DNA of 21,135 nt, taken from the IMG/VR virus record IMGVR_UViG_3300022874_000061, positions 1 through 21,135 of that record; one strand, 5' to 3'. The notes under the pieces were generated by a model. It saw nothing but the letters and a program-made list of their open reading frames with translations, did no database searches and had not been told where the DNA came from. The position numbers and the translations under genes were made by a program. Below, one piece after another: positions 553 to 14,354 of the stretch (within the stretch, counting starts at the first letter, position 1; each line of letters starts with the position of its first letter). This stretch comes from a virus.

Positions 553-2168
553 TTATGAGAAAGAAAGTAGAAGACAATTCTGAGTTTTTAGTTTTGTCAT
601 ATATGATCATGAATACTTCCGTACTTTTTTCCGGCTATTCCAGATATAAATCGGGACAGTTAAAAACGAAACACTTTACAAAATATTTTCAACCAATCTT
701 CCGTTGGTTGATTAGATACCATGCACAACATCATAAAGCACCTGGGCGTACAATCCAAAAAGTCTTTGAAGAGAAAAAGAAAAATTTATCAAAAGGGGAT
801 TGTGAAATAATAGATGATTACTTAGATCGTCTTGCTGAAGAGTTTATTCTTTATCAAGAAGATTCGGTCGATCCTGCTTATATTCGTAATGAAGTTTTGT
901 TAGACTTTATAAGAAAGAGAGAAATATCTGAAAGAATATTGAAGGCACAAGATAAGATAGACAAAGGACAATACGAAGAAGCAGAAAAAATTGTATCAAC
1001 GTATCCTGTATTAAACAAGAATGAAGAAGATGAGACCCTTGGGACGATTATTCCATACTCAAGCGAAGATCTCGTTAATCATGATGAATCTCATAGTGCG
1101 GCTGACGTTGCTTTTCAGTTTGATGGTGATTTGCATCACATGGTTGGTTCGCTTAATAGGACATGGCTTGTTGCTATAACGGGAACAGAGAAAACCGGTA
1201 AGAGTTATTTTCTTCAGGAAATGGCTTTTCAGGCGGCACTTTATCAAAGGAAAAAAGTTCTAATAATAAATCTGGAACTTGGCGAAAGTATTGTTAGAAA
1301 CAGAACAAGAAGAAGGCTTACACTTACTACAAATAAAAAGCGGTCACAGAAAGTAATCTATCCAGTTTTTGATTGTGAAAATAATCAGAATGGGACTTGT
1401 AGAATTTTAAGTACCTTGAAAAATAAAAAAGGATTATTTAAAGATAGTACGGAAGTTGTTGACTTTATGAATCGGGAAGGCTGGAAAGTTTGTACTCAGT
1501 GCAGAAACGATCCTAATATTCGCAGAAATGCTGCTTCTTCTAAAAGATTCATTCCTACAATTTGGTTTGACAAAACAAGAATTATGCCAATATCAAATGG
1601 AAGAGTTGCTAAAGCCATTAATAGAAATAGAATGACTGGGCTTTCTAATTTAAGAGTAAAATGCTTTCCGAGATTTTCCGTTACTTTTGATGAAGTTTAT
1701 GATTATGTTCGTCGTTATGTTGACAGAACTGGTTGGGTTCCAGATATAATTGTTTTTGATTATTTGGATATTCTTGCACCTGAAGCTGGTAATTTACAGG
1801 AAAGAATTGATGTTGATAGAAAATGGAAGAAGGCCGCAAGAATGGCAGGAGAAATGAACTGTCTTGTTCTTACTGCTGATCAAGCTACAAAAACCAGTAG
1901 AACTCAGTATGCTTTAGATCAGATGTCAACTTCAGAATCTAAAACAAAAGATTCTCATTTAGATGTTCGCCTTGCAATTAATCAAACCGATGATGAGAAA
2001 GAATTGAATATCACAAGAATGAATGTTTTATTTCATAGGCATATTATGTTTAGTGTTAAACACGAAGTTCTTATAACACAGAGGCTGGTTACGGCAGAAC
2101 CAATGGTTGACAATTCCAGACTTTTCTTCCGTGGGAAAAAATATAGATTATCTGGAACTTCTTTTTAA
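549..2168 (+). CDS. DnaB-like replicative DNA helicase with zinc-finger-like insertion
   Basis: This is a RecA-fold replicative helicase of the DnaB/gp41 type, which would unwind DNA 5'-3' ahead of the polymerase as a hexamer. Residues 1-160 form a helical N-terminal part. The ATPase core follows, with Walker A GTEKTGKS (212-219), a Walker B strand DIIVFDYLDIL whose Asp is 404, and LTADQATK (441-448) as the likely sensor segment. Between the Walker motifs lie C276, C284, C315 and C318 (CX7C...CX2C), which look like a zinc-binding insertion. At 539 residues it is longer than typical bacterial DnaB. An ATG at 555 is an alternative start two codons in; 549 gives the ATGA overlap with the gene before. 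The next gene-free region begins right after the stop, with a promoter. Confidence 0.85.
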   Translation: MIMRKKVEDNSEFLVLSYMIMNTSVLFSGYSRYKSGQLKTKHFTKYFQPIFRWLIRYHAQHHKAPGRTIQKVFEEKKKNLSKGDCEIIDDYLDRLAEEFILYQEDSVDPAYIRNEVLLDFIRKREISERILKAQDKIDKGQYEEAEKIVSTYPVLNKNEEDETLGTIIPYSSEDLVNHDESHSAADVAFQFDGDLHHMVGSLNRTWLVAITGTEKTGKSYFLQEMAFQAALYQRKKVLIINLELGESIVRNRTRRRLTLTTNKKRSQKVIYPVFDCENNQNGTCRILSTLKNKKGLFKDSTEVVDFMNREGWKVCTQCRNDPNIRRNAASSKRFIPTIWFDKTRIMPISNGRVAKAINRNRMTGLSNLRVKCFPRFSVTFDEVYDYVRRYVDRTGWVPDIIVFDYLDILAPEAGNLQERIDVDRKWKKAARMAGEMNCLVLTADQATKTSRTQYALDQMSTSESKTKDSHLDVRLAINQTDDEKELNITRMNVLFHRHIMFSVKHEVLITQRLVTAEPMVDNSRLFFRGKKYRLSGTSF

Positions 2169-2170
2169 AA

Positions 2171-2187
2171 CGTGTTATAATATAAAT
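2171..2187 (+). promoter_or_regulatory. Extended -10 promoter P1
   Basis: The 17-base string CGTGTTATAATATAAAT has TG at 2173-2174, one spacer base and a perfect TATAAT at 2176-2181: a textbook extended -10 element, which works with a weak or absent -35 box. No good TTGACA lies 17 bases upstream (the best is TGGAAC). It starts three bases after the helicase stop and precedes the first tRNA-like RNA, so it probably drives the RNA cluster. TATAAATA, the T4 late promoter consensus, is nested inside it at 2181-2188, but the conserved TG makes a sigma70-type reading more likely. Confidence 0.65.
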
Positions 2188-2199
2188 ATTGGAGAAATT

Positions 2200-2308
2200 G
2201 ATGGGGTGGTAGAATTGGTAATGCACGATCCACAGGGTCGATCTGATTGGTTCAAATCCGGCGATATTCTTTAGGCAAGCAGTACGGGTTCAAATCTCGT
2301 CTTCATTA
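2200..2308 (+). ncRNA. tRNA-like RNA 1 (about 109 nt)
   Basis: GATGGGG (2200-2206) can pair with CTTCATT (2301-2307), three of the pairs being G-U, and the helix can run on to 11 pairs with flanking AATT/AGTT. After TG comes a D-like arm with GTA/TGC pairing around GAATTGGTAA. A small hairpin follows, CGATC-CACAG-GGTCG (2226-2240), with a 5-base loop and no U33-like base. The T arm is clear: ACGGG, loop TTCAAAT, CTCGT (2284-2300). A second TTCAAAT loop at 2251-2257 has a weaker stem; it could be a duplicated T arm or an anticodon-like arm reading CAA. The length exceeds a normal type I tRNA by ~35 bases. CCA is not encoded. It could be a decayed tRNA; no amino acid can be assigned. Confidence 0.4.
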
Positions 2309-2355
2309 GTTCCTCTATTAATTATTTTTTAATTAGCTGTAACTTTTTTTTAAAA

Positions 2356-2372
2356 CGTGTTATAATATAAAT
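2356..2372 (+). promoter_or_regulatory. Extended -10 promoter P2
   Basis: The same 17-base string as P1, CGTGTTATAATATAAAT, recurs here with TG at 2358-2359 and TATAAT at 2361-2366. Upstream identity includes TTTTTAAAA, and the downstream leader is near-identical too (GTTGAGAAAATTG against ATTGGAGAAATTG), so promoter and leader look like a duplicated unit. It precedes tRNA-like RNA 2 by about a dozen bases after the expected start site. Confidence 0.65.
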
Positions 2373-2384
2373 GTTGAGAAAATT

Positions 2385-2584
2385 GCTAAGGTAGCGGGAT
2401 TGGTAAACAGGATATTTTTCAGAATATCTTTTCGAAGTGTTTATCATTGGTAACCGATTCTATAATAACCAAAAGTTTGTAAGTTTGCTATGGAGTATGA
2501 AGGTGGAGTGGAGCGAAAGCGTTGAAGCGATGAAGCCGAGAGGACTAACAAAACTTATTGCAGGTTCGAATCCTGTTCTTAGCA
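2385..2584 (+). ncRNA. tRNA-like RNA 2 with long central insertion (about 200 nt)
   Basis: GCTAAGG (2385-2391) pairs with TCTTAGC (2577-2583), only the last pair being G-U; the helix extends to ten pairs with flanking ATT/AAT. The T arm is canonical: GCAGG, loop TTCGAAT, CCTGT (2560-2576). The 5' half resembles a leucine-type tRNA (TAGCG, then GGATTGGTAAA), but the D stem pairs poorly. A hairpin follows, GATATT-TTTCAG-AATATC (2411-2428), with a 6-base loop. About 130 bases then separate it from the T arm, including a GCGAAAGC tetraloop-like element and a possible GTAAGTTT/AAACTTAT stem closing just before the T arm. This could be an intron, a degraded insertion or a separate RNA class. I could not find a full group I intron core or a tmRNA tag frame. 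CCA is not encoded. Confidence 0.45.
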
Positions 2585-2709
2585 ATAACAAGTTGATTGT
2601 GGAAAGACCAGGTAGGGTAGAAAAAATCTTCTTAAAGTAAGAAAGGAGGTTGCTTATGATTGATTGTTAGTTACCAGTTTTTGTTAAATTAGTTGTTGAT
2701 TGTTAAATT

Positions 2710-2819
2710 GATGGGGTAGCTCAAATGACTGGTCAAAGTAAGAATTGAGCAGAGCATCTGGTGATGCACTATGGTGGTTTTGTCACCGGAATATATAGGT
2801 TCGAATCCTATTCCCATCA
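2710..2819 (+). ncRNA. tRNA-like RNA 3 (about 110 nt)
   Basis: GATGGGG (2710-2716) pairs with TCCCATC (2812-2818), only the last pair being G-U, and the helix extends to ten pairs with ATT/AAT. The T arm is perfect: ATAGG, TTCGAAT, CCTAT (2795-2811). GCTCAA/TTGAGC can form a lengthened D-like arm. An extra hairpin follows, GCATC-TGGT-GATGC (2754-2767), and then an anticodon-like arm TGGTG-GTTTTGT-CACCG (2772-2788). The direct repeat TGGTG at 2759-2763 and 2772-2776 suggests that a 13-base segment was inserted or duplicated; removing it gives a more normal arm. Depending on the pairing chosen, the anticodon would be TTT, TTG or TGT, so I assign none. There is no CCA, and no obvious promoter of its own. 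Confidence 0.5.
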
Positions 2820-2937
2820 ATAAATATTCAATAAATACGAGGAGGGAAGAATAAAAATTTGTATGGATTGTTCGGAGTATAGGGAGTATAGTTTGTAACA
2901 TTACTAATTATTTTTTATTAAAAGGAGTTATTCAATT

Positions 2938-3678
2938 ATGAGTAAAGTAGTTAAAAAAGAACTTGGCAGCTTTATCAAAAAACTTAATAAGTTAAAACTG
3001 GCTGACAAGATTGGAACGAGGGGTGATGTTGGGGAGATGCAGGAAGAGTTCATTTCGGCCATTGAGGAAATTGACGATGCTGGTAAGGCCGACAAAGTTG
3101 ATAAAGAAATAATTGATTATTATGAAGGACTTCTCGAAGAGGGCGAGCCCGAGAAAGAACCTGAGAAAGACGGTAAAGATGGTGAAGATGAAGTTGACCT
3201 TGACGAGTTAAAAGAAGAACTTGAGGATATGTCATTTAAAGAGTTAAAGGCATATATCGAAGAAGAAGACCTTGAACTTGAAACGAAAATTACAAAAAAG
3301 AAAGTTGATGATATTATCGAAGAAATTCTGGAGTTGGCTGGCGAAGAGGGCGAGCCCGAGCCTAAGGAGAAAGATAAGAAAAAAGATAAAAAGGCTGACA
3401 AAAAGAAAGACAAAAAGAAAGACAAAAAGAAAGACAAAAAAACTTCTAAAGTAAAAGGCAAACTTCCAAAAATGCTTTTAGAAGCGATCGAAGAGGGTGA
3501 CGCTACATGGGGTAGTCTGGCCGAATTGGTTGCTGACGAAAAAGATAAAGAAGCGGAGAAGTGTATGGGTATAGTTATTCGGGTAGTTAGCCGAAAGATA
3601 TCCAAGGTTGTGCCTATTGTTTTGACTATGTCGGGTGATGAAACGGAAGCTACTTTTAAATTATCAGAGGAGGAATAA
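2938..3678 (+). CDS. Acidic/lysine-rich protein with SAP/HeH-like motif
   Basis: The function is unknown. Start ATG 2938 follows AAGGAG at good spacing. Residues 1-65 are a charged helical region, and 66-90 are Glu/Pro/Asp-rich. Residues ~97-135 read like a small helix-extension-helix module of the SAP/HeH/Rho-N type, with the core DMSFKELKAYIEEEDLEL. Residues 143-168 are a lysine tract built of KKKDKK repeats. The C-terminal ~75 residues look globular, with a hydrophobic segment (CMGIVIRVVSRKISKVVPIVL). EEGEPE occurs twice, each time encoded by the same 18 bases (3136 and 3343). A very similar acidic helix module ends the SSB encoded at 15077, which suggests a nucleic-acid-linked role here too. 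A hairpin terminator follows the gene. Confidence 0.75.
   Translation: MSKVVKKELGSFIKKLNKLKLADKIGTRGDVGEMQEEFISAIEEIDDAGKADKVDKEIIDYYEGLLEEGEPEKEPEKDGKDGEDEVDLDELKEELEDMSFKELKAYIEEEDLELETKITKKKVDDIIEEILELAGEEGEPEPKEKDKKKDKKADKKKDKKKDKKKDKKTSKVKGKLPKMLLEAIEEGDATWGSLAELVADEKDKEAEKCMGIVIRVVSRKISKVVPIVLTMSGDETEATFKLSEEE
3397..3432 (+). repeat. Three tandem 12-base repeats inside a coding region
   Basis: GACAAAAAGAAA occurs three times in a row and a fourth copy begins at 3433. The unit is four codons (DKKK), so copy-number change would lengthen or shorten the lysine tract without shifting the frame. Confidence 0.85.
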
Positions 3679-3723
3679 GCTCAGTTAAATATAAGTTAGC
3701 ATAAAACCTTTAGTTAATAATAC

Positions 3724-3766
3724 AAGAGCGTCAGAGCTTATCTCATAGCCTCTGACGCTCTTATTC
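3724..3766 (+). terminator. Hairpin, probable intrinsic terminator
   Basis: AAGAGCGTCAGAG (3724-3736) pairs perfectly with CTCTGACGCTCTT (3750-3762) around a 13-base loop. The bases after it, ATTCTTGTATG, are T-rich but not a pure T run. ATACAAG on the left and CTTGTAT on the right allow an outer extension across a bulge. It sits between the acidic protein and the clamp gene. The likely role is termination of the upstream transcript; a 5' leader structure controlling the clamp gene is the alternative. Confidence 0.7.
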
Positions 3767-3793
3767 TTGTATGTTAGGAGGGCAATAATAGTT

Positions 3794-4591
3794 ATGGCAA
3801 AAACATTAAAGAAAAAAGATAATATTTTCAAAACGAAATCTTTCCTTAGAATATTAAAGGAAATTTATTTGGGCGGATTGTTAGAAGAATGTATGGTATC
3901 TATAAACTATGGGAGGGCAAAAGTAGAAGCAGTAGATATTACCAATTCCCTTATCGTTATTTGTAAGGGTGCTGTTGCTTCTAAAGACGTAAGCGGCCAG
4001 TTAGGACTTGGAAATTTAGATCTTCTTATTAAGTTCTTATCTTCAGTAGAAGACCAGAAACTCTTTTTTAAATACAAGAAGGACGGGTCAAGCTTTGAAC
4101 TTTCAAGAAAAGATAAACGAAGAAAACTGAATTACTTATTAACTCAGCCAGAACTAATCGCTACTCAGTTACAGGTAGATGAGGATTCTGATGATAAGGA
4201 AGACCCTTACTTAAAGATGAAGAAGATGATGGAGTATAATGTAGAATTATCTGCTTCATTCATGAAAGATTTTCTTACGTATATTGGCCTGTTAAAAACG
4301 AAGGATGTCGTTCTTGAATTTGATGGGGCTGAGGAAATTGCTTTTATTTGTGGTGGATCAAATGACCATAAGTTTGAATTGGTATTAAGTAATGAAGTAG
4401 AAGGAGATGAAGTAGACCCATTTAGTCTTAAGGTTAACGGAGAACATCTTGCTCGAATTTTTAATACGATTGGTTTTGATGAAGATGAACCACCAGTATT
4501 ATCTTTTGCAGAAGAGAAACTTATAATGATAGAAGCTGAAGGTACGGTTTGGGCTCTTGTTCCGTTAACTGATTTGGAAAATGAAGATTAA
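3794..4591 (+). CDS. Sliding clamp (PCNA/gp45-like)
   Basis: This is probably the DNA polymerase processivity clamp, a ring that tethers the polymerase to DNA. At 265 residues it matches two-domain clamps such as PCNA or T4 gp45, not the ~366-residue bacterial beta clamp. The N-terminal half has a clamp-like strand-helix pattern (LGLGNLDLLIKFLSS). The end, with LKVNGEHLARIFNTI followed by VLSFAEEKLIMIEAEGTVWALVPL, has the typical closing strands of such clamps. No single motif proves the family; the two loader genes directly downstream make the call solid. I chose ATG 3794 because AGGAGG at 3777-3782 precedes it; the earlier in-frame ATG at 3767 abuts the terminator hairpin and has no ribosome binding site. 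Confidence 0.75.
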   Translation: MAKTLKKKDNIFKTKSFLRILKEIYLGGLLEECMVSINYGRAKVEAVDITNSLIVICKGAVASKDVSGQLGLGNLDLLIKFLSSVEDQKLFFKYKKDGSSFELSRKDKRRKLNYLLTQPELIATQLQVDEDSDDKEDPYLKMKKMMEYNVELSASFMKDFLTYIGLLKTKDVVLEFDGAEEIAFICGGSNDHKFELVLSNEVEGDEVDPFSLKVNGEHLARIFNTIGFDEDEPPVLSFAEEKLIMIEAEGTVWALVPLTDLENED

Positions 4592-4602
4592 GGAGAAAAA
4601 TC

Positions 4603-5520
4603 TTGAAGAATCTTATATGGTACGAAAAGTTTCGGCCTGACAGTTTATCTTCAATGACCTTACCACTAAAGGCAAAGAAAATATTTAGAGAATATATAAG
4701 AGAAAAACAAATTCCTCATGTACTTTTCTATGGACCGCCTGGAAGTGGTAAGACTACATTGGCTATGATTCTTTTGAAAGCAACTGCTTCGAGGAAGTTA
4801 ATTCTCAATGCAAGTAGTGGTGATCGAGGAATAGCAACAATTAAAATAAAAGTAAAACAATTTGCTACTGCCAAGAGGACAAGTTCTGATAAATTGAATG
4901 TCGTTTTTTTAGACGAAGCAGACGGTCTTACTTTTGATGCACAAATGGCATTGAAAAATACGGTAGAGACCTACTATAAAAATTGTCGTTTTATATTTAC
5001 TTGCAATCATATTGACATGGTCATTCCGGAGATTGCTTCCAGATGTATTCCTTTTCAGTTTGATACTTATCCTAAGGACAAACTTCTTATTCATCTTAAA
5101 AAGATGCTGGACAAAGAAGGGATTAAATATAAAGAAAAAAGTATTAACAGGATAATAGAACTTTGCTATCCCGATATCAGGTCTATTATTAATCTTCTTC
5201 AGAAAAATAGTATCGGCAAGAAGCTTGAAGATTCCGAAGTCTTGATAGACCTGAATTTATTTAGAGAATTTTTATTAGACGGGAACTTGTTTAAGATAAG
5301 AGAAATATTTAATGGGAAGATGGATTTTGTATGGGTGTATAAATATCTGTTCAATATTTTTATCCCTGAGTTTTTGGATAAAGATGTTAAGTCTGAGGCG
5401 GCAATTATTACTGCTGGCTATCTTTATAAAGATAGGACTGTTCCAGATAAGGAAATCAATTGTACCGCTTGTTGTCTTGAGTTAATGGATTTAATGGAAG
5501 TAAATATTTCTTTTGGATAA
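4603..5520 (+). CDS. Clamp loader ATPase (RFC small subunit/gp44-like)
   Basis: An AAA+ ATPase that opens the sliding clamp and places it at primer-template junctions. The RFC N-terminal box is present (WYEKFRPDSL, 6-15). Walker A GPPGSGKT lies at 44-51, Walker B is VVFLDEAD with the RFC-type DEAD form, and the SRC arginine-finger motif is present (ASRCIPFQF). At 305 residues it is close to T4 gp44 and archaeal RFC-S. Translation starts at TTG 4603: AAGGAG lies 7 bases before it, and the conserved RFC box begins only a few residues later, so the next ATG (4654) would cut into the domain. It follows the clamp by 11 bases. Confidence 0.92.
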   Translation: MKNLIWYEKFRPDSLSSMTLPLKAKKIFREYIREKQIPHVLFYGPPGSGKTTLAMILLKATASRKLILNASSGDRGIATIKIKVKQFATAKRTSSDKLNVVFLDEADGLTFDAQMALKNTVETYYKNCRFIFTCNHIDMVIPEIASRCIPFQFDTYPKDKLLIHLKKMLDKEGIKYKEKSINRIIELCYPDIRSIINLLQKNSIGKKLEDSEVLIDLNLFREFLLDGNLFKIREIFNGKMDFVWVYKYLFNIFIPEFLDKDVKSEAAIITAGYLYKDRTVPDKEINCTACCLELMDLMEVNISFG

Positions 5521-5527
5521 AAACAAA

Positions 5528-5920
5528 ATGAAAAAGAAAAATAATAGCAATAATAGTTTTGGTATAGCAAGTGCTCTTTTTACAAAAGAAGAAGTGAAAG
5601 TACAGAACGAATTTATGGTTAACAGAATTCTTTCTTTTCAGAAAGGAACCATTTTGTTTTCTATCGATATGAATAGGTTCGTATCTCGTCTGCCGTCTTG
5701 GGCAAGAGATACTCTTTATAATTTAGGGGTTCCAAAACAAAAGAATGCACCATATCTTAAATATCCCAAGAGGAAGAAAAAACAGAATCCAAAACTCTTA
5801 GCCAAGATTAGTAGTACTTTTTGTTGCAATGGATATCATTCGCAACAAATAATTGACATTCTTAAAAGGCATAAAGGGAAGCCACCAGAATCTTATTATG
5901 GATTAAAGAAAGGGGAATGA
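5528..5920 (+). CDS. Clamp loader small partner (gp62-like, Phage_clamp_A type)
   Basis: Probably the non-ATPase partner of the loader, equivalent to T4 gp62. The diagnostic stretch is NEFMVNRILSFQKGTILFS followed by IDMN, which parallels FMVENALSQFPECMPAVYA and MN in T4 gp62. The KLLAKISSTFCCNG...IIDILKRHKG tail parallels LLAKRYQVN...YKSILTKNG. At ~130 residues it is shorter than gp62 (187), though short forms are common in phages. The start is ambiguous: ATG 5528 lies just after the loader stop with little ribosome binding site, and TTG 5513 would overlap the loader gene by 8 bases. Either way the gene is coupled to its partner. Confidence 0.7.
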   Translation: MKKKNNSNNSFGIASALFTKEEVKVQNEFMVNRILSFQKGTILFSIDMNRFVSRLPSWARDTLYNLGVPKQKNAPYLKYPKRKKKQNPKLLAKISSTFCCNGYHSQQIIDILKRHKGKPPESYYGLKKGE

Positions 5921-6307
5921 ATGGACATAACGAAGTTTGTCAATAAAAGAAGTAAGGAAGAAAATCAAATGATAAGATTTGAAAAGATGATTCTTCCTTC
6001 TACTACAAAGCAAGAACAGAGAGTATTGGAAATGCATCTTTTAAAACCAATGCCGATTCCAAAGTACAAGGGGACTAAAACAGGGATGTCAAATTTCAAG
6101 AAGCGAACTCTTTTCTTTTCTTTTCCCAGTCCCGATTTTATTAAGAGGTTGGGGAAGATTGTTACTATAAATTCTTACATAGAAAATAATTGTCACGAAG
6201 TATTATTTTTAACGGAGCTGATTCGCTTGATAGAGGAAGGAAGAATTAAATGGGATGGCAAAAAGTATTCTTTCAGAACCCGTAGGGGAGGCAAGATAAG
6301 GTTATGA
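5921..6307 (+). CDS. Hypothetical small basic protein
   Basis: I do not recognise this 128-residue protein. ATG 5921 directly follows the TGA of the gene before, with AAAGGGGA as ribosome binding site, and its own TGA overlaps the next ATG (6304). It is basic, with a proline-rich central part (LKPMPIPKYKG), a predicted helix (HEVLFLTELIRLIEEGRI) and a basic tail (RTRRGGKIRL). No transmembrane or catalytic motif is visible. It sits exactly between the clamp-loader genes and the radical SAM operon. Confidence 0.7.
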   Translation: MDITKFVNKRSKEENQMIRFEKMILPSTTKQEQRVLEMHLLKPMPIPKYKGTKTGMSNFKKRTLFFSFPSPDFIKRLGKIVTINSYIENNCHEVLFLTELIRLIEEGRIKWDGKKYSFRTRRGGKIRL

Positions 6308-7731
6308 AAAAAGAATCGTTTGATGATTTAAAAAAGAAAGTAACAAGAGACTCTCAGGAATTTATTCGAGAAAATAGGGGGATGAAAATAGACAAATCCA
6401 GAACTTATATCAGTCCGAGAATAAGTTCTGAGTTTATGGATTGTTCTTTACCGATGACCTTCGACCAATATTCTTATTGCTCGATGGGGTGTACATACTG
6501 TTTTGCATATTATATGAAAAGCCAAAATCCAAGCTTTTCTCATAAGTTACATTCTGTAGACGAGAAGAAGCTTGTTGCTACTATTAAGGGAAAGCCTCCA
6601 ACAAGTAGACTCAAGGCAATGCATAAGAACTTTTTTTCTAAGAGGTTTGTATTTCATTGGGGTGGTCTTGCTTCTCCTTTCTGTAATTTTGAAAAAGTTA
6701 ATGGAGTCGGGTATAAGATTGTTTCTGCTTTGGGAAAAGAAAGCTATCCAACTCTTTTTAGTTTTAAGGGATCGGCTGTTTTCCGTCCGAACTTTGAGAA
6801 GTTATTTACAAAATATGCACATCAAAAGAATTTTGCTTTTCAGGTATCTATTGTTTGTCCTTCAGATGAAATGAGTAAGCAAGTAGAAATAGGAGTCCCT
6901 GTTACGAGCAGAAGGATAAAGGCATTAAAACATTTATCAGATATGGGGTACTATACCGTACTTCGTCTTCGACCTTTTATTATAGGAATTTCTGATATTG
7001 GTCTTGACGATTTACTTCATCAAGCAAAAGAAGCGGGAATAAATGCGATAAGTACAGAGTTCATGGCAATTGACCAAAGGCATAATGAGCATATTGCTAA
7101 GAGGTATAAATGGCTTGGAGAATTAACAGGAACAAAAGATTTGTTAGAATATTTTAAAGCATTAAGTCCAAGTGAACGAGGCGGATACATGCGACTTAAC
7201 AGATTAGTGAAAGAGAAGATTGTAAAAAAGATGTATACGTTTTGTGTAGATAATGATATTTTATTTTCATGTAGTGACCCCGACTATAAAGAGTTAGGGA
7301 TGTCTGGTTGTTGTTGTGGGTTGCCTGATACCTATAAAGAGAATAAGGAAATGGAAAATTGGGGAAAGAGCCAATTGACTTACGCCCTAAAAGAAGCCAG
7401 AAAAAAATTTCATCGTGATGGTAAAATTGTTCATTTTAAATTTAGCAAAGTTTTTGATCCAAAGGAAAGTCCATTTTTAAGCGACTCTACTTTTGGTCAG
7501 GATCATATTGGTGTTACAGGAATGACTGCAAGTCAGAGGCGAGGTATAACGTACTTAGATTTTGCAAGGGAAACGTGGAATAATCTCAGGTCTCCTGGAA
7601 ATCCAAGAAATTATTTTCATGGAAAAATGATGCCTATTAGAATGGACGAAGAAGATAATTATGTTTACGTCTATAATCCAAGTGAGTACGAGGCCAGATG
7701 GGTAAAGGAAGGAATTGATTTAACGAAGTAG
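6304..7731 (+). CDS. Radical SAM enzyme, SplB-like
   Basis: The radical SAM cluster motif is C59-X3-C63-X2-C66 (YCSMGCTYCFAY), which would hold a 4Fe-4S cluster and cleave S-adenosylmethionine. Later elements follow the layout of the SplB / DNA repair photolyase-like family (COG1533): HWGGLASPFCNFEK where that family has a DP(Y/F)...E element, FKGSAVF, a VSIVCPSDE strand, then VEIGVPVTSRRIKALKHLSD and LRLRPFIIG. At 475 residues it is longer than classical spore photoproduct lyase (~340). A C-terminal region with several Cys (SGCCCG near 338-343) may bind metal. It could repair or modify a DNA base or another substrate; the sequence does not say which. It ends in TAG, with a 25-base gap to the next gene. 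Confidence 0.85.
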   Translation: MKKESFDDLKKKVTRDSQEFIRENRGMKIDKSRTYISPRISSEFMDCSLPMTFDQYSYCSMGCTYCFAYYMKSQNPSFSHKLHSVDEKKLVATIKGKPPTSRLKAMHKNFFSKRFVFHWGGLASPFCNFEKVNGVGYKIVSALGKESYPTLFSFKGSAVFRPNFEKLFTKYAHQKNFAFQVSIVCPSDEMSKQVEIGVPVTSRRIKALKHLSDMGYYTVLRLRPFIIGISDIGLDDLLHQAKEAGINAISTEFMAIDQRHNEHIAKRYKWLGELTGTKDLLEYFKALSPSERGGYMRLNRLVKEKIVKKMYTFCVDNDILFSCSDPDYKELGMSGCCCGLPDTYKENKEMENWGKSQLTYALKEARKKFHRDGKIVHFKFSKVFDPKESPFLSDSTFGQDHIGVTGMTASQRRGITYLDFARETWNNLRSPGNPRNYFHGKMMPIRMDEEDNYVYVYNPSEYEARWVKEGIDLTK

Positions 7732-7756
7732 AAGAAGTAGTAGGGGAATTAAAATT

Positions 7757-8593
7757 ATGAAGATAGCCATATATATACCAAGCCATAGAAGACCAGAAAA
7801 ACAAAGAACCTTTAATTTTATACCTAAAAGATTAATAAAAAATACTTTCATTGTGGTTGATAAAAAAGATTTTAAAAGATATAAAGAACTATATGGGTCG
7901 AATGTTATAGAATGTCCTGAGAAGGGGATATGTAAAACAAGACAATGGATTCTTGAGAACAGTAAAAGGAAATATGCATTGATGTTAGATGATGATATGG
8001 ATTTTTCTGTTCGTAATAAAGAATTAAAATTGCATAGGTGTAGTCCTAAAGAATTTGCTGAGATGGTTATGCTCCTTGAAGGCTGGCTCGAAGAGGGATT
8101 GGTACATGTAGGAATAAGTCAAAGATTCGGTAACAATAGAATAGAGGAAGATTATCTGGAAGTTACAAGAATGAATAATGCGTATGCGTATAATTGCGAA
8201 AAGATGATTGAGTTAAAAGAAAAGCATAATGTATCATTTGATTCTCTTGAAAACAAGCATGGTAAGCAGCTTGTTATGGAAGACTTTTTAGTAACGCTAT
8301 CATTGTTTCAACTTGGATTTAAAAATCGTGTTACGTATAAGTATGTATGGAGCCAAAATCAGAGTGGTGCTGATGGAGGTTGCTCTTTATACAGAACATC
8401 TAAAATGCAAAAAGAAAGTGCTATTTTATTAGCACAAAAGTTTCCAAGATACGTAAGGGTAGTTAAAAAAGAAAGTTCAAAAGTATGGAAAGGTTTTGAT
8501 AGCAAAGTAAGAATCGACGTCATTATACAATGGAAGAAAAGTTTTAATGAAAAGGGAAGGGCGAATGGAGGAATTAGATCATGGCTCAAATAG
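7757..8593 (+). CDS. Probable glycosyltransferase, GT-A type, resembling TET-associated GT
   Basis: The protein opens with a Rossmann-like strand and loop KIAIYIPSHRRPEKQRT (2-18), continues with FIVVD (31-35), and has an acidic triad DDD (78-80) in ALMLDDDMDF, placed as the metal/nucleotide-sugar-binding DXD motif of GT-A enzymes. MEDFLVTLSLFQLGF downstream fits the second acidic region. This pattern, IPSxxR...DDD, is what I know from the TET/JBP-associated glycosyltransferases (TAGT; relatives of the base J glycosyltransferase) proposed to glycosylate hydroxymethylated pyrimidines in phage DNA. A glycosyltransferase acting on another acceptor is the main alternative. No TET/JBP or hydroxymethylase gene is in the window. 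The gene overlaps the next by 13 bases. Confidence 0.6.
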   Translation: MKIAIYIPSHRRPEKQRTFNFIPKRLIKNTFIVVDKKDFKRYKELYGSNVIECPEKGICKTRQWILENSKRKYALMLDDDMDFSVRNKELKLHRCSPKEFAEMVMLLEGWLEEGLVHVGISQRFGNNRIEEDYLEVTRMNNAYAYNCEKMIELKEKHNVSFDSLENKHGKQLVMEDFLVTLSLFQLGFKNRVTYKYVWSQNQSGADGGCSLYRTSKMQKESAILLAQKFPRYVRVVKKESSKVWKGFDSKVRIDVIIQWKKSFNEKGRANGGIRSWLK

Positions 8594-9363
8594 AATATAG
8601 ACTCTTTTTCCAAAGAAGGTCTGGTGGCCATGCGATTGTTGAATGGGTCGCATCTCATTTTGAAGAATCGGGCGTATTAATTAATTCTCTTCGGCCGAAT
8701 GTAAAGTGGAGTCGTCCAACCAAGTATTGGAATATAAAATATCCGTTCCATAATGCGAATAACGAAATCCAATTGAGAGAATATGAAAGGGGAAGATTGA
8801 AAATATCTCATTCGTTTGTTATTACTACATACGAAGACCCGTTAAGATATTCAGATGGCCTGTATAGGCATAAAAAATATGGGATAATAAATAGTCACAT
8901 TAAATATATTATTGTCGTTCGAGACGTATATAACTATGTCGCAAGCCGATTAAAATTTGATAGCAGACATAAAAAATTCACTCCTCCTGGATGGTATTCC
9001 GAATGCATTGCTCATTGGAAAAAACTTCTTCTTAATAAAAACTTTAATTTTTGTATTAGATTAAACTATAATGACTGGTTGACTAAAAAGAAATATCGTA
9101 TTAAAATTGCGAAGAGATTGGGGCTTCCGAATAATGATGGCCATATGGTAGATAAAATCCATAGTTATGGTGGGGGGTCTTCGTTTACCGGCATTAAAAA
9201 AACTGCAGCTCCTGAAGATCTTGTTAATAGGTATAAAGTCTACATAGAGGAGTTTGGAATTATATCTGAATTAAAAAAAGTTTTGAATGATAATGAGTTA
9301 CGCGAAATTAATCTTTCCGAATTTGGATGGGCGCTGGATAGAGAAGGGAAAATTATAAAATGA
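8581..9363 (+). CDS. Sulfotransferase-like protein
   Basis: Two hallmarks of PAPS-dependent sulfotransferases are visible. An N-terminal 5'-phosphosulfate loop-like segment, RRSGGHAIVEWV (12-23), follows the first strand. A 3'-phosphate-binding segment, YIIVVRDVYNYVASRLK (109-125), has the expected Arg (114) and Ser (122). The remaining ~100 residues include LNYNDWL and a glycine/serine loop GGGSSFTG (~197-204). At 260 residues it is in the usual size range. ATG 8581 has GGAGG upstream and overlaps the glycosyltransferase end; the stop overlaps the next start as ATGA. APS kinase, which makes the PAPS cofactor, is two genes downstream in the same operon, which strongly supports the assignment. 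The acceptor is unknown. Confidence 0.7.
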   Translation: MAQIEYRLFFQRRSGGHAIVEWVASHFEESGVLINSLRPNVKWSRPTKYWNIKYPFHNANNEIQLREYERGRLKISHSFVITTYEDPLRYSDGLYRHKKYGIINSHIKYIIVVRDVYNYVASRLKFDSRHKKFTPPGWYSECIAHWKKLLLNKNFNFCIRLNYNDWLTKKKYRIKIAKRLGLPNNDGHMVDKIHSYGGGSSFTGIKKTAAPEDLVNRYKVYIEEFGIISELKKVLNDNELREINLSEFGWALDREGKIIK

Positions 9364-10328
9364 AAGAAAAACAAGAACCACCATTTGCAATACAAGTTGA
9401 GCTTACAGAAGGCTGTAATTTATTTTGTAAATTTTGTGGTATACGTGGCATAAGAAAAAAACCAAACGAATGTAAATTTATGTCGTTAGAATGTAGTAAA
9501 AATATCGCAAAGCAAATTGGTGCAACAAAATGGGGGTCACGTATTGAGTTTGCTATGCATGGCGAGCCTACCTTAAATCCAAGACATTTAGAAATTATAA
9601 AAATATTTAGAAGTTATCTTCCACAAAACCAATTAACGATGTTGACGAACGGGATTGGACTTCTTCCTTCGCCAAAAGAAAAAGTAAAAAGATTATTTTC
9701 TAATGGAATAAATATTCTTGGTATAGATGATTATAGTCATAATCCATTCTCAAAGAAAATCAAATCAAAAGTAAAAGGCGAAGAATATCCTGGAGGTGAA
9801 AGCCCACATAAAAAGTTTCGAATCGATACCAAAAAAGTTATCTATATAAAAGATATACAAGATGCTAAAACTGGGGGGCATAGCGTTTTGAATAATCATT
9901 GTGGGTGTGCCGCTCCTTCATTATTTTCTCCAATGAAGAAGAGATGCGCAAAGCCGTTTAGGGAATTGAGTATTAGATGGGATGGTAAGATTGCTATTTG
10001 TTGTAATGATTGGAGGGGGCATTACTATTGTGGAGAAGTAAAAAAGGAAGGGAACTTAGACGATATTTGGAACGGCAAGGAATTCGATATCGCAAGAAAA
10101 TTATTATACGATAGAAACAGGAATTTCATACCATGCAAATGGTGTGATGCAATATCTTACAGGGTTGGATTCTTACCGGACAAAATGGGTAAAGCAACAT
10201 TGCCAATACCTACAAAAGAAGAAGTAGACTGGGCACGAGAAGAAAATACAGTTGACAAAACAATGTCAGAAATAATTGCAAGGCCATGGGAAAAAAATAA
10301 AAGAGTTGGGATTAGGGAATTGATATGA
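9360..10328 (+). CDS. Radical SAM protein with SPASM-like C-terminus
   Basis: The N-terminal motif C19-X3-C23-X2-C26 (TEGCNLFCKFC) is a canonical radical SAM cluster site, followed by HGEPTLNP (68-74), which corresponds to the usual GGEP motif, and MLTNGIG. The C-terminal half carries many more cysteines (181, 183, 196, 214, 215, 224, 259, 262) around a DGKIAICCNDW element and a DDIWNGKEF element, which match SPASM-type auxiliary cluster domains found in peptide, sugar or alcohol-modifying radical SAM enzymes. Its substrate is unknown. It is joined by 4-base overlaps to the sulfotransferase-like gene before and to APS kinase after, so the three proteins are probably made together. Confidence 0.85.
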   Translation: MKEKQEPPFAIQVELTEGCNLFCKFCGIRGIRKKPNECKFMSLECSKNIAKQIGATKWGSRIEFAMHGEPTLNPRHLEIIKIFRSYLPQNQLTMLTNGIGLLPSPKEKVKRLFSNGINILGIDDYSHNPFSKKIKSKVKGEEYPGGESPHKKFRIDTKKVIYIKDIQDAKTGGHSVLNNHCGCAAPSLFSPMKKRCAKPFRELSIRWDGKIAICCNDWRGHYYCGEVKKEGNLDDIWNGKEFDIARKLLYDRNRNFIPCKWCDAISYRVGFLPDKMGKATLPIPTKEEVDWAREENTVDKTMSEIIARPWEKNKRVGIRELI

Positions 10329-10930
10329 ATAATATTTTTCCTTCTCCATCATCTGTTTCTACTGTTGATCGGTATCTATTAAATGGTCATAGCGGAGGTC
10401 TGCTCTGGTTCACGGGTCTATCTGGAAGTGGAAAGTCCACCCTTGCTCATGCTGTTGAAGAAAAGTTGTATTCCCTTTGCGTGTGCAGTTATGTTCTTGA
10501 TGGAGATAATATTAGAACGGGATTAAATAAGGATTTAACTTTAAGCTCTGAAGACAGAAAAGAGAATGTTCGCCGTATTGCCGAGGTGTCCAAAATTATG
10601 GTGGATGCGGGATTGCTCGTTTTTGCCGCTTTTATTACTCCATATAAGCAAAGCAGAGAATACGTACGCAGGTTAATGACTGGTTGGCCTTGTTATGAAG
10701 TATATATTAAATGTAGTATTGAAGAATGTGCAAAGCGTGATCCAAAAGGTCTTTATGAAAAGGGTCGCATGGGTGAAATAATAAATATGACGGGAATTTC
10801 TGCGCCTTATGAAATTCCTGAACATTCTGATTTTATTATCGCTACAGATAAACTTAATTTGCAGCAATGTGTGGATGAGGTAATTGAATTTTTGCTAAAA
10901 CAAGGGTTGATTGATGTAGGCTCATGTTGA
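10325..10930 (+). CDS. cysC: Adenylylsulfate (APS) kinase
   Basis: It phosphorylates adenosine 5'-phosphosulfate with ATP to give PAPS, the activated sulfate donor. The match to bacterial CysC runs along the whole 201 residues: LLWFTGLSGSGKSTLA with Walker A at 31-38, DGDNIRTGL (59-67), EDRKENVRRIAEV, AFITPYK, RDPKGLYEK (138-146) and MTGISAPYE (155-163). The residue matching the E. coli phosphoserine S109 (ISPHR) is T105 here (ITPYK). No ATP sulfurylase (CysD/CysN or Sat) is in the window, so APS would come from the host. PAPS could feed sulfate assimilation, but a sulfotransferase-like gene in the same operon suggests use in a transfer reaction. The stop lies inside a 22-base tandem repeat. 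Confidence 0.95.
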   Translation: MNNIFPSPSSVSTVDRYLLNGHSGGLLWFTGLSGSGKSTLAHAVEEKLYSLCVCSYVLDGDNIRTGLNKDLTLSSEDRKENVRRIAEVSKIMVDAGLLVFAAFITPYKQSREYVRRLMTGWPCYEVYIKCSIEECAKRDPKGLYEKGRMGEIINMTGISAPYEIPEHSDFIIATDKLNLQQCVDEVIEFLLKQGLIDVGSC

Positions 10931-10994: not shown

Positions 10995-13900
10995 ATGGAA
11001 AATAAAAACTTCACCCATCTTCATTTGCATAGTGAATATAGCGTTCTTGACGGAGTAGGAACGGTAGATGCCTATGCAAAAAAGGCTTCTGAAATGGGGT
11101 TCAAATATCTTGCTCTTACAGACCATGGGTCTATAAATGGGTTAATTGAATTTCAGAAAGCTTGCGATAAATATAATATTTCTCCAATACTTGGTTGTGA
11201 AGCCTATATCGTTCCAGATGCAAAAGTAAAAAATGATAAGAGGCGAGGGCATATTTTACTTTTGGTTAAGAATCAAGAAGGCTTTAATAATTTATGTAGA
11301 TTACTTACATATGCTAATTTAGAAGGGCTTTATTATAGGCCAAGAATAGATTATAAAATGCTTCTAAAACATTGCGAAGGGTTGGTTGTTTCTACTGCTT
11401 GTTGTAGTTCGTTTTTAATAAAGTGCAAAGAAGGAGAAAAGTTTTTTTATGATTTGTTAGATAAGATTGGAGAGGATTTATATTGTGAAGTAATGCCTCA
11501 TCAATTAGATGGGCAAATAAAAGCAAACAAATTAAATATTCGTCTTGCGAAAAAATCAGGCTGTAAAATTATAGCGACAAACGATAGCCATTATATACAA
11601 AGAAGTGATTGGAAAGCACAGGAAGTACTTCTTGCTATTCAAACAAAAAAATTGTGGAGTGATCCCAATAGATGGAAATTCGATATTAGAGGATTGCATC
11701 TACGATCTGTGTCAGAAATGATAAGGGCATTAAGAAAAGTAAATGCTTACAAAAAAGAATATCTTTTAAATACTATTGAGATAGCAGAGAAGTGCAGTTC
11801 TTTTAGAATTCCAAAACAAGAAATTCATTTACCAAGAGTCAAAGGGGTATTAAGAGAAAAGAAATTCTTTTGGGAACTATGTCTTGAAGGGTATAAAAAT
11901 AAGTTTAAGAAAGAAATAAGCGGAGGATATCTTTCTCGTCTAAAGGAAGAGTACAATCTTATCGTTAAGAAGAAATTCGCTCGTTATTTTCTTATTGTGT
12001 GGGAATTGGTTAAATGGTGTAAATCAAATGATATTTTAGTTGGTCCAGGAAGAGGATCAGCGGCAGGAAGCCTTATTGCATTTTTACTTGGAATTACTGC
12101 TATTGATCCGATTAAACATGGATTACTTTTTAGTAGATTTATTAACGAGGACAGAATTGACTATCCAGATATAGATGTAGATTTTGAGCATATTAAGGGG
12201 CATCTTGTAAAACAGCATCTTGAAACGATGTATGGAGATAGCCATATTGCTAACGTAAGTTCTTTTAATAGAATGAAGGCAAAGGCTGTTATAAAAGATG
12301 TAAGTAAAGTTTTTAGCGTACCTTTTGATGAAGTCAATAGTTTTACAGATTTAATTGAAGACAATGATGAACATACCGGAATACAAGAGTCTATCGATAA
12401 TTATCAAGAAGGGGCAGAATTTAATGATAGACACCCTGAAGTTATTAGAATCGCTAAAGTTTTAGAAGGGCAAATAAAAAATTATTCTCAACACGCTGCG
12501 GCTTTGATTGTTTCTAATGAACCATTAGATCAGAGCGGAAGATGTAATTTGCTTAGGAGAAAAGACGTACTTCTTGTAAATTGGGAAAAGAATAATGCAG
12601 AATTTGTTGGCCTTATGAAATTAGATGCTTTGAGATTAAAGCTTCTTTCTATTTTTGGGGAAACATTAAAAAATATCAAAAATAATTCTAATCAAGATAT
12701 TGACTTTGACAAAATAAATATAGATGATAAGGCTGTTTATCAAGAAATTGATAATGGAAATACTGTTGGGCTGTTTCAGTTAAATACAAGGGCAACAACA
12801 AGTTTGATTGGTGAAGTTGGGGTTAAGAAATTTAATGATTTAAGAGATATTGTCGCTCTTGTTCGACCAGGAATTATGCAATCGGGAATGACTGCCGAAT
12901 ACATAAGAAGAAAACGAGGTGGTTCTTGGGAAACGAAACATAAAATATATGAATCTATTACTGCTGATACTCATGGGGTAGTTGTATTCCAAGAACAGGT
13001 GATGAAAGTTATTAGTGAAGTTGCTGGTTTGTCTTATTCTACTGCTGATAAAATTAGAAAGATAATTGGCAAGAAGAGAAGTAAAAAAGAATTCATGCCA
13101 TATAAGAAAAAATTTATTCGTGGATGTTTAAAACAAAAAACCCTTTCGAGAAAAGAAGCAGAAGAATTTTGGACTGGATTAGAAGAGCATTGTAGATATA
13201 GTTTTAATGCCAGCCATTCTGTTGCTTATGCTTTATTAGGATACCAGTCAGCGTGGTTAAAAAAATATTTTCCTACTGAATTTATTTGTGCGGCATTAAC
13301 TTTTGGTGCAAAGGATAAGAAATCGGTATTAATTGAAGAAGCGTATCGTTTAGGACTGACTGCTGTATTACCAAAGGTAGGCATAAGCGAGGCTACAAGG
13401 TGGGTCGCAAAAGAAGGTAAGTTATATATACCCTTCGTAGAAGTACGGGGTATAGGGGCTGTCAAGGCTGTTGAAATAGCTAATGCGGGAATAACTACTA
13501 ATGATATTAAGAAGTTTTTTACCAAGAAGAAATCAAATGTAGTTGTAAAGCAAAAAGGAGTGTTAGGAAAAATCCTTAATAAGATTGGTTCTTATAATCA
13601 ATATGATAGTGTTCAGGTAGATGAAGAAGTAGAATCGTTTTTTGATTTTCGTATTGTTGTAAATTCTCAAGCCAGTTACAAAAAACTCTTTACTCTTTTT
13701 AATGGTAAGATTCGACTTGATGTAATTGATAAATTGTTAGCGGGTGACATAAAAGAAGTTAGAAAAGCACCGAAGTCGGCTTTAAGAGAAGTAGAGTTTT
13801 CGGGGCATGATAAGCTTATGGCCTGTTCTCGTTGTGATCTTAGGAAGGAGTGTAAAAGCCCAGTTACTCCAACCCCAGGAAAGTATAATATTGTGATTAT

Positions 13901-14354
13901 TGGTGAAGCTCCTGGAAAAGAAGAGGATAAACAAGGAATTGGTTTTGTTGGGCAGACAGGAAAATTATTATGGAAGAGTATAAATAGAAGAGGATATGAT
14001 AAAAGCTTATTTCATATTACAAATATTTGTAAGTGTTTTCCTTCTAAAACCAGAAAACCAATTACTTCACAAATAAAAAAATGCAGTACTTTTTTAAAAC
14101 GAGAGCTTGTAGAAGTACGGCCAGTGGTTATCTTAGCGTTTGGTAATACTTCTCTACAATTTTTTACTCAACAGAAAACAGGAATTATGAATTTAAGTGG
14201 AAAAGTTATATGGAACGAGGAGTATGGTGCGTGGGTCGTTTGGTGTTTACACCCGTCGGCAGTTCTTTACAATTCAGAGAATAAAAAGTACTTCAAAAAA
14301 GGACTAAATTCTTTTTTCAGATTGTTGAAGATTTTTGTACCAAGGAAAAGCTAA
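10995..14354 (+). CDS. dnaE: DNA polymerase III alpha (DnaE) fused to family-4-type uracil-DNA glycosylase
   Basis: A family C replicative polymerase with a second enzyme at its C-terminus. The PHP domain is intact at the N-terminus (HLHLHSEYS 8-16, DHGS 43-46, TNDSHY). The palm has GPGRGSAAGS, the catalytic PDIDVDF with D394 and D396, and a third Asp at 544 (KLDAL); FQEQVMKV and FNASHSVAYALLGYQSAWL mark the fingers, and VRGIGAVKAVEI a helix-hairpin-helix. The usual C-terminal OB/tau-binding part is not evident. From ~930 on the protein is a UDG: C944 and C947, GEAPG (970-974), GFVGQTGKLL, TNICKCFP with C1014, C1030, and LHPSA with H1086. CX2C...CX15C is the 4Fe-4S pattern of family 4 UDGs. 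The start has AGAAGG upstream. Confidence 0.93.
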   Translation: MENKNFTHLHLHSEYSVLDGVGTVDAYAKKASEMGFKYLALTDHGSINGLIEFQKACDKYNISPILGCEAYIVPDAKVKNDKRRGHILLLVKNQEGFNNLCRLLTYANLEGLYYRPRIDYKMLLKHCEGLVVSTACCSSFLIKCKEGEKFFYDLLDKIGEDLYCEVMPHQLDGQIKANKLNIRLAKKSGCKIIATNDSHYIQRSDWKAQEVLLAIQTKKLWSDPNRWKFDIRGLHLRSVSEMIRALRKVNAYKKEYLLNTIEIAEKCSSFRIPKQEIHLPRVKGVLREKKFFWELCLEGYKNKFKKEISGGYLSRLKEEYNLIVKKKFARYFLIVWELVKWCKSNDILVGPGRGSAAGSLIAFLLGITAIDPIKHGLLFSRFINEDRIDYPDIDVDFEHIKGHLVKQHLETMYGDSHIANVSSFNRMKAKAVIKDVSKVFSVPFDEVNSFTDLIEDNDEHTGIQESIDNYQEGAEFNDRHPEVIRIAKVLEGQIKNYSQHAAALIVSNEPLDQSGRCNLLRRKDVLLVNWEKNNAEFVGLMKLDALRLKLLSIFGETLKNIKNNSNQDIDFDKINIDDKAVYQEIDNGNTVGLFQLNTRATTSLIGEVGVKKFNDLRDIVALVRPGIMQSGMTAEYIRRKRGGSWETKHKIYESITADTHGVVVFQEQVMKVISEVAGLSYSTADKIRKIIGKKRSKKEFMPYKKKFIRGCLKQKTLSRKEAEEFWTGLEEHCRYSFNASHSVAYALLGYQSAWLKKYFPTEFICAALTFGAKDKKSVLIEEAYRLGLTAVLPKVGISEATRWVAKEGKLYIPFVEVRGIGAVKAVEIANAGITTNDIKKFFTKKKSNVVVKQKGVLGKILNKIGSYNQYDSVQVDEEVESFFDFRIVVNSQASYKKLFTLFNGKIRLDVIDKLLAGDIKEVRKAPKSALREVEFSGHDKLMACSRCDLRKECKSPVTPTPGKYNIVIIGEAPGKEEDKQGIGFVGQTGKLLWKSINRRGYDKSLFHITNICKCFPSKTRKPITSQIKKCSTFLKRELVEVRPVVILAFGNTSLQFFTQQKTGIMNLSGKVIWNEEYGAWVVWCLHPSAVLYNSENKKYFKKGLNSFFRLLKIFVPRKS

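Follow-up and report, generated by a model that had tools for sequence, protein, structure and literature searches.

An operon in the window (the whole 21,135-nucleotide stretch of phage DNA that was analysed) encodes a protein with the predicted fold of a PAPS sulfotransferase (ST), together with a TET-associated glycosyltransferase (TAGT), two radical SAM proteins (rSAM1 and rSAM2) and an APS kinase (CysC). These genes probably serve to place a sulfated sugar on DNA. Read from the sequences as a whole, the operon may serve the hypermodification of phage DNA, with a pyrimidine that is both glycosylated and sulfated as its product, and the chances that the entire chain of steps proposed below holds are about even.

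A sequence-only reading had placed the five genes, with short gaps or overlaps, between the clamp loader and the polymerase, and the ORF check of the window bears this out: all five ORFs are located on the plus strand at positions 6304–10930 (Table 1). rSAM1 and TAGT are separated by a gap of 25 bases, TAGT and ST overlap by 13 bases, and ST–rSAM2 and rSAM2–CysC are each joined by a 4-base overlap of the ATGA type. The DNA of the cassette was found again in three more contigs of the window phage with 99.9–100% identity, and an assembly artefact is thus ruled out for it. A T4-like clamp, a clamp loader and a small clamp-loader subunit are encoded 5′ of the cassette, and the DNA polymerase III alpha subunit is encoded 3′ of it. 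A GDP-mannose dehydratase and a sugar C-methyltransferase are also encoded on the 51-kb contig of the window phage. All of the records used here are metagenomic fragments, in which a gene not seen may lie outside the fragment.

Table 1 The cassette and its neighbouring genes in the window
Feature	Position	Strand	Evidence
Sliding-clamp-like protein (context)	3767..4591	+	phrog_223 polymerase processivity factor, weak match 0.0021; constant place upstream of rSAM1 in relatives
Clamp loader ATPase (context)	4603..5520	+	PF00004 4.6e-13 and clamp-loader families
gp62-like small clamp-loader subunit (context)	5513..5920	+	phrog_225 6.9e-9
Small conserved protein directly before rSAM1	5921..6307	+	No family match; most rSAM1 loci have a relative in this position
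rSAM1, divergent radical SAM protein, 475 aa; proposed base activator	6304..7731	+	CX3CX2C; rSAM1 loci of other phages
TAGT, TET-associated glycosyltransferase, 278 aa	7757..8593	+	PF20691; phrog_842
ST, PAPS-type sulfotransferase (predicted), 260 aa; family without Pfam model	8581..9363	+	AlphaFold model; structural alignments; conserved motifs
rSAM2, radical SAM/SPASM protein, 322 aa; proposed sugar remodeller	9360..10328	+	PF04055 and PF13186; BtrN profile match
CysC, APS kinase, 201 aa; proposed PAPS supply	10325..10930	+	PF01583; NCBIfam PRK03846
DNA polymerase III alpha with C-terminal uracil-DNA glycosylase domain (context)	10995..14354	+	PF07733, PF17657, PF02811, PF03167

The assignment of ST, which had been called sulfotransferase-like, comes from structure prediction. 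Its sequence gave no useful match in Pfam, PHROG, NCBIfam or PDB and matched no sulfotransferase model, and these libraries may lack this branch. A genome scan with only the two phage ST sequences found no further relative, and the entry to the relatives was a weak plasmid match (E 1e-4). The AlphaFold model had a pLDDT of 30 when two sequences were given, and a pLDDT of 76 with a pTM of 0.79 when an alignment with 15 relatives was given. The best 50 structural alignments listed for this model are all with PAPS sulfotransferases (Z 12.8 to 9.6), the first of them covering 210 residues at 3.7 Å, and the best Foldseek match is Stf0 (6e-4). Foldseek also listed guanylate kinases, which were discounted as sharing a general P-loop likeness, given that only sulfotransferases appear in the structural alignment. 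Among the 16 aligned sequences, R13, G15, R114 and S122 are invariant and S14 is nearly so; R12-R13-S14-G15 forms a conserved motif, and R114 and S122 are eight residues apart. Judged by motif, the RSG residues and this spacing presumably correspond to the known PAPS 5′-phosphosulfate and 3′-phosphate sites. ST has in common with Stf0, TPST2, CurM and olefin-synthase sulfotransferase domains, and SULTs the fold, the P-loop-like RSG motif and the R/S pair. It differs from them in that the identity is only about 8–15%, that no Pfam model recognises the family, and that the members linked to TAGT carry motifs peculiar to them (RRSGGHA and SSFTG), from which the L169 member departs. By its modelled fold ST is grouped with the PAPS sulfotransferases, and its predicted reaction is the transfer of sulfate from PAPS.

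The glycosyltransferase, the SPASM radical SAM enzyme and the APS kinase named in the sequence-only reading all scored above the family cut-offs. TAGT matched PF20691 with 57.7 bits (cut-off 27.5, 2e-15) and phrog_842, beta-glucosyl-HMC-alpha-glucosyltransferase, at 6.7e-46, and its profile search of PDB sequences found no relative. The family is linked to DNA pyrimidine modification, and the T6-type TAGT is credited with diglucosylated DNA cytosines (PMC13390438). At locus L018 of another phage, a dehydratase related to GDP-mannose dehydratase adjoins a TAGT. rSAM2 reached 50 bits for PF04055 (cut-off 29.5) and 38.4 bits for PF13186 (cut-off 21.5), and the best solved-structure match of its profile is the 2-deoxy-scyllo-inosamine dehydrogenase BtrN (1.3e-16). 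The substrate of BtrN is a free aminocyclitol in antibiotic synthesis, whereas a sugar attached to DNA would be novel as a substrate. Relatives of rSAM2 adjoin TAGT and a ThyA-type pyrimidine hydroxymethylase (HMase) in seven other phages. CysC matched PF01583 at 1.6e-57 (194 bits, cut-off 21.1) and NCBIfam PRK03846 at 7e-71 (238 bits, cut-off 163).

ST adjoins TAGT in five different phages: the window phage and those of loci L097, L169, L182 and L183. The order rSAM1-TAGT-ST-rSAM2 of the window is repeated in L097. L169 carries TAGT, two rSAM2 genes, TAGT and ST in addition to an HMase, and L182 carries ST, TAGT and rSAM2, again with an HMase. This adjacency in other phages, in two of them with an HMase and a SPASM enzyme, favours a glycosylated, sulfated DNA base. 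The five genes do not recur as one unit: no APS kinase is located at the place of CysC in L097, the closest relative, and among the related records searched, an APS kinase above the cut-off was found only in contigs of the window phage. A five-gene unit was therefore rejected, and in the related records searched ST and an above-cut-off cysC were seen together only in the window phage.

In L183, the TAGT–ST pair is located between prohead-protease-like and capsid-like genes. This keeps in play a virion protein (capsid or tail) as the acceptor of the sulfated sugar instead of DNA, and the viral ST relative at L189, which lies beside a glycosyltransferase and upstream of large virion-type genes, is consistent with such a target. 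We consider it unlikely, however, since TAGT and ST have replication genes, rSAM2 or a hydroxymethylase as neighbours, and not head genes, at four of the loci (that of the window phage, L097, L169 and L182), and since modification of DNA pyrimidines is the role to which the TAGT family is linked. It is more improbable still that the genes modify a surface or secreted glycan of the host, perhaps as a barrier to superinfection, or that they are auxiliary genes for the sulfur metabolism of the host. The cellular and most other viral ST relatives have no TAGT linkage; the cellular ones come from a cluster of polysaccharide type that also encodes another sulfotransferase, a glycosyltransferase and a mannose-1-phosphate guanylyltransferase, and ST is also found in glycan-type clusters of other phages. 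These settings, and the two sugar genes on the 51-kb contig, speak for a host glycan. On the other hand, the glycosyltransferase of the operon is a TAGT in a slot where related phages carry enzymes of DNA hypermodification, and a sugar-nucleotide enzyme may equally feed a DNA glycosyltransferase, as the position of the L018 dehydratase illustrates.

rSAM1 had been described as a SplB-like radical SAM enzyme. The radical SAM part stood: the CX3CX2C motif is present as CSMGCTYC (residues 59–66), and its three cysteines are kept in four relatives. SplB was rejected as its family, because no SplB model is among the NCBIfam or Pfam matches; the Pfam radical SAM match is below the cut-off (E 0.0016), the nearest NCBIfam families, PA0069 (3.8e-12) and Rv2578c, are both far below theirs, and "SplB-like" is thus only approximate. 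A profile search of PDB sequences found no relative. About 23 relatives of rSAM1 were found in other phages at the same replication locus, and relatives lie between the clamp loader and the polymerase beside thymine-hypermodification enzymes. The slot from rSAM1 to the polymerase contains an ADDT in L114, L116 and L121, an amidoligase in L121, a weak HMUDK match in L102, and TAGTs in other phages. rSAM1 is part of a wider conserved locus, of which only the downstream cassette is variable, and it accompanies at least two separate TAGT branches.

The TAGT-bearing phage loci were partitioned by their base-activating enzymes: 63 of the 85 carry an HMase-like gene, 8 a TET/JBP dioxygenase, 11 rSAM1 and 3 none, and not one carries two of the three, a partition whose statistics overstate independence because the loci are mutually related. 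Profile searches of the 51-kb contig of the window phage with PF00303, the HMase profile and PF12851 gave no match; the lack of an acceptor-making HMase or TET/JBP enzyme beside its TAGT on this contig is a feature of the setting and not of the TAGT family. We propose that rSAM1 takes the place of these enzymes there. It is somewhat probable that rSAM1 activates a pyrimidine base for modification, which looks like a third, oxygen-independent route to pyrimidine activation in DNA. A less probable course, to be taken seriously all the same, is that the DNA receives a sulfated sugar while rSAM1 acts later or repairs DNA, the hydroxymethylated base being supplied by an unseen or divergent hydroxymethylase. 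The SplB family, to which rSAM1 is loosely related, repairs DNA. The contigs are incomplete, rSAM1 has no close characterised relative, and a divergent ThyA-like gene lies beside a dCMP deaminase on the L097 contig, with ThyA-like genes on the contigs of L109 and L120 too. However, seven rSAM1 contigs of 72–99 kb have no PF00303 gene, although this model detects TAGT-linked HMases at 1e-18 to 1e-24, and rSAM1 never occurs with an HMase or TET/JBP enzyme at a TAGT locus. Moreover, the window phage has ThyX at the place of the ThyA-like gene of L097, which fits a plain thymidylate synthase role for both.

With rSAM1 as the activator, the pathway would proceed as follows. The first step would be activation of a DNA pyrimidine by rSAM1, which would stand in for the HMase or TET/JBP enzyme that other TAGT phages have; in the simplest case, a radical reaction would oxidise the 5-methyl group of thymine and so yield 5-hydroxymethyluracil. 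TAGT, in keeping with the known function of its family, would put a sugar on the activated group; rSAM2, as a BtrN-like SPASM enzyme, may oxidise or remodel this sugar; ST, judging from its modelled fold, would transfer the PAPS sulfate to it; and the phage APS kinase would boost the PAPS supply. The likely purpose would be to shield the phage DNA against host nucleases. Hydroxylation of a ring methyl without O2 has a precedent in the radical SAM enzyme BciD, which acts on bacteriochlorophyllide (PMC7242693); BciD is adduced as a precedent for the reaction, not for kinship by sequence. The ST fold, the APS kinase in the operon, the L097 order, the HMase loci, the slot contents, the partition and the BtrN match are points for this pathway; the ThyA-like genes of L097, L109 and L120, the unconserved APS kinase, the head-gene setting of L183 and the ST relatives without TAGT are points against it. 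Phage DNA as the target of a sulfated, sugar-bearing modification, one candidate in the sequence-only reading, is now clearly stronger by virtue of the ST fold, the ST–TAGT pairs in five phages (two with HMase) and the slot shared with thymine-hypermodification enzymes elsewhere; L183 stands on the other side, and the acceptor and the chemistry are those that we infer.

Three known systems can be compared with this cassette. One is the T-even pathway of glucosylated 5-hydroxymethylcytosine, in which a T6-type TAGT adds the second glucose: the glycosyltransferase family (phrog_842/PF20691) and the DNA-replication setting are common to both, whereas the window phage has rSAM1 in place of a detected thymidylate-synthase-like hydroxymethylase and adds a sulfotransferase, a SPASM radical SAM enzyme and an APS kinase. 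Another is the TET/JBP-TAGT systems (the eight loci above), in which a base-activating enzyme is likewise the neighbour of TAGT; the window phage differs in encoding a radical SAM enzyme instead of TET/JBP and in the addition of sulfation. The last is thymine hypermodification by 5-HMU kinase and ADDT/aGPT-type transferases in phages such as PhiW-14 and SP10. The rSAM1 relatives have an ADDT, an amidoligase and an HMUDK-like kinase in their slot, whereas the window slot holds TAGT, ST, rSAM2 and CysC, and the known pathway begins with a dUMP hydroxymethylase.

Literature searches on sulfated DNA, on phage sulfotransferases linked to DNA modification and on radical SAM enzymes in connection with phage hydroxymethyluracil turned up no account of this system, although the core TAGT and thymine-hypermodification papers may mention rSAM1. 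We know of no report of a DNA decoration with a sulfated sugar. The joint reading, in which rSAM1, as an O2-independent counterpart of TET/JBP, oxidises thymine (or 5-methylcytosine) at its methyl group within DNA, and the product is glycosylated, remodelled and sulfated into the first sulfated DNA base, is tentative and falls a little short of an even chance. If true, sulfate would join the groups that phages attach to DNA, to our knowledge as the first case, and sulfate activation through PAPS would be tied to genome protection; the decoration could guard the viral genome against bacterial defences. The reach of rSAM1 would be wider: DNA chemistry would gain a new class of enzyme, and a widespread phage locus would activate DNA pyrimidines with no need of oxygen or of a hydroxymethylase that acts at the nucleotide level, which would explain the ADDT, kinase and TAGT genes in phages that lack known activating enzymes.

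The claimed succession of five ORFs, with its gaps and overlaps, was borne out, and the same operon DNA was found in three other contigs of this phage at 99.9–100% identity (the longest is 51 kb). Family searches likewise supported the identities of the APS kinase, the radical SAM/SPASM protein (rSAM2), and the TET-associated glycosyltransferase (TAGT; 57.7 bits against PF20691, cut-off 27.5). For the first gene, the label "SplB-like" held only in part: the product, rSAM1, carries a CX3CX2C motif and counts as a divergent member of the radical SAM proteins, but the label is a loose description, because even the closest NCBIfam families, PA0069 and Rv2578c, scored far under the cut-off.

Coordinates of the features in the window (operon genes on the plus strand) and in the phage records compared (L-numbers; L008 is the 51-kb contig of the window phage)
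Record	Position	Feature	Remarks
Window		T4-like clamp, clamp loader, gp62-like subunit	Upstream flank of the operon
Window	5921–6307	Small protein; no family match	Directly before rSAM1, likewise in most relatives; T4 has regA at this place
Window	6304–7731	rSAM1	
Window	7757–8593	TAGT	
Window	8581–9363	Sulfotransferase-like protein (ST)	260 aa
Window	9360–10328	rSAM2	
Window	10325–10930	APS kinase	
Window	10995–14354	DNA polymerase, Pol III alpha fused to a uracil-DNA glycosylase (UDG) domain	Downstream of the operon; UDG-led PolA-type proteins in relatives L098, L057, L063
L008	4655–5773	GDP-mannose 4,6-dehydratase	Near terminase gene
L008	6678–7949	C-methyltransferase	Near terminase gene
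L008	13124–13603, 13591–14019	Short ThyX (159 aa); next to it, a dATP/dGTP diphosphohydrolase domain (PF18909)	The domain may point to another nucleotide-pool change
L057 (= L122)	1743–5108	rSAM1, 1121 aa, two intein-like inserts	One insert at last cysteine of CX3CX2C; downstream polymerase genes appear interrupted as well
L097	1328–1936, 7910–8473, 11835–12473	Three related HNH-type homing-endonuclease-like genes	Scattered in replication region; one at the APS kinase place
L100	9893–11503	B12-binding radical SAM enzyme	After rSAM1; two TAGTs and a pair of rSAM2 homologues accompany it; possibly a methylated sugar or base
L103	9652–11304	B12-binding radical SAM enzyme	After rSAM1; possibly a methylated sugar or base here too
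L114	10001–13971	rSAM1 locus with myo-inositol-1-phosphate synthase, ADDT, phosphatase-kinase fusion	Suggests that the base modification is unusual, perhaps linked to inositol
L119	5063–5647	UDG	Stands alone, unfused
L169	2520–3134	Protein with a PHADD motif like PIG-L/LmbE deacetylases	Between TAGT and rSAM2; hints at an amino sugar
L183	2309–3708	TAGT-ST pair	Between prohead-protease-like and capsid-like genes

For the ST, the family and database searches gave no useful match by sequence. A profile built from a Paracoccus plasmid match (E 1e-4) and a weaker Gemmatirosa match reached 16 loci among bacterial genomes, including those of cyanobacteria, Planctomycetota, and Rhodobacterales. The 16 aligned sequences have in common RSGxHA close to the N terminus, R114 and S122 at a spacing of eight residues, and GxGSS. 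The AlphaFold model (pLDDT 76, pTM 0.79; low confidence at residues 41–49, 56–61, and 195–207) matched Stf0 and TPST2 (Foldseek ~1e-3), and all 50 listed structural alignments were to PAPS sulfotransferases (Z 12.8 to 9.6); on these grounds, the predicted structure has the PAPS-binding fold.

Relatives of rSAM1 occur in ~23 other phages, mostly in a similar frame: clamp, clamp loader, (gp62), small protein, rSAM1, variable genes, and UDG-bearing polymerase. In many of them, TAGTs occupy the variable slot; its other contents are the amino acid:DNA transferase ADDT (L114, L116, L121), an amidoligase (L121), an HMUDK-like kinase (L102; weak match, 6e-4), a T4 beta-glucosyltransferase-like protein (L119; weak match, 8e-4), and B12-binding radical SAM enzymes (L100, L103). 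HMUDK and ADDT are parts of the known thymine-hypermodification route, which begins at 5-hydroxymethyluracil in DNA.

A three-way partition is seen among the 85 TAGT-bearing loci: 63 carry a hydroxymethylase (HMase)-type gene, 8 carry TET/JBP, and 11 carry rSAM1, while none carries two of these. Some of the 63 were picked up only by the thymidylate-synthase-like query, the more distant one, and their gene may be an ordinary synthase. The remaining three, which carry none, nest among the HMase, TET, and rSAM1 rows, respectively, of the TAGT tree, as fragments would. Fisher's test of rSAM1 against HMase gave 3e-8, which is not an independent probability because the loci are related; on the tree, the rSAM1 label has to change five times, and well-supported branches force at least two of these changes. 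Whole-contig searches of 30 rSAM1 records found a ThyA-type gene in three and no TET/JBP; the searches did give positive matches elsewhere. In L097, the closest relative, the ThyA-like gene adjoins a deaminase-like gene; since the window phage (51-kb contig) has ThyX instead, both are probably ordinary thymidylate synthases. Hydroxylation of a methyl group on a ring has a radical SAM precedent in BciD (PMC7242693). We lean towards rSAM1 being the enzyme that activates the base.

The TAGT of the window falls in phrog_842 (beta-glucosyl-HMC-alpha-glucosyltransferase), and its relatives in named phages adjoin a pyrimidine hydroxymethylase or thymidylate-synthase-like gene; diglucosylated cytosines in DNA are attributed to the T6-type TAGT (PMC13390438). 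Relatives of rSAM2 lie at TAGT loci with HMase in seven other phages. The best solved structure for the rSAM2 profile is BtrN (1.3e-16), an aminocyclitol dehydrogenase, and this suggests the sugar as the substrate of rSAM2. The dehydratase and C-methyltransferase of the 51-kb contig, and a related dehydratase directly upstream of a TAGT in L018, may supply a sugar donor, perhaps an unusual one.

The co-occurrence of all five genes was only partly confirmed in the close records, which are all metagenomic fragments. L097 preserves rSAM1 (70%), TAGT (78%), ST (71%), and rSAM2 (81%) in identical order, but an HNH-type protein occupies the APS kinase position; among the related records searched, the APS kinase cut-off was reached in the window phage only. 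TAGT was found in 5 of the 21 viral records of the ST family (the window phage and L097 included), adjoining ST in all five. One of these, L169, reads TAGT, PIG-L-like protein, rSAM2, rSAM2, TAGT, ST, with a ThyA-type HMase ~2 kb further; L182 reads glycosyltransferase-like protein, ST, TAGT, rSAM2, with an HMase present. A quick tree places the five TAGT-linked STs and one other viral sequence, L189, in a group with support in the mid-80s. The other viral STs examined adjoin other glycosyltransferases, and thus specificity for DNA does not extend to the entire ST family. The gene neighbourhood of the TAGT-ST pair in L183 would fit decoration of the virion, and for this reason a virion protein is the main rival to DNA as the acceptor. 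We consider it likely that a sulfated sugar is carried on the phage DNA.

In the proposed chain, rSAM1 would generate, within DNA, 5-hydroxymethyluracil or something equivalent, and TAGT would add a sugar, which rSAM2 would remodel and ST would sulfate with PAPS fed in by the APS kinase; for the chain as a whole, the chances appear even. To our knowledge, neither a sulfated DNA-bound sugar nor base activation by a radical SAM enzyme has been described, and no account of either was found in the literature searched, which covered the central papers incompletely. Glycosylated hypermodified pyrimidines are already known from phages, and the system is thus a variation on an established theme.
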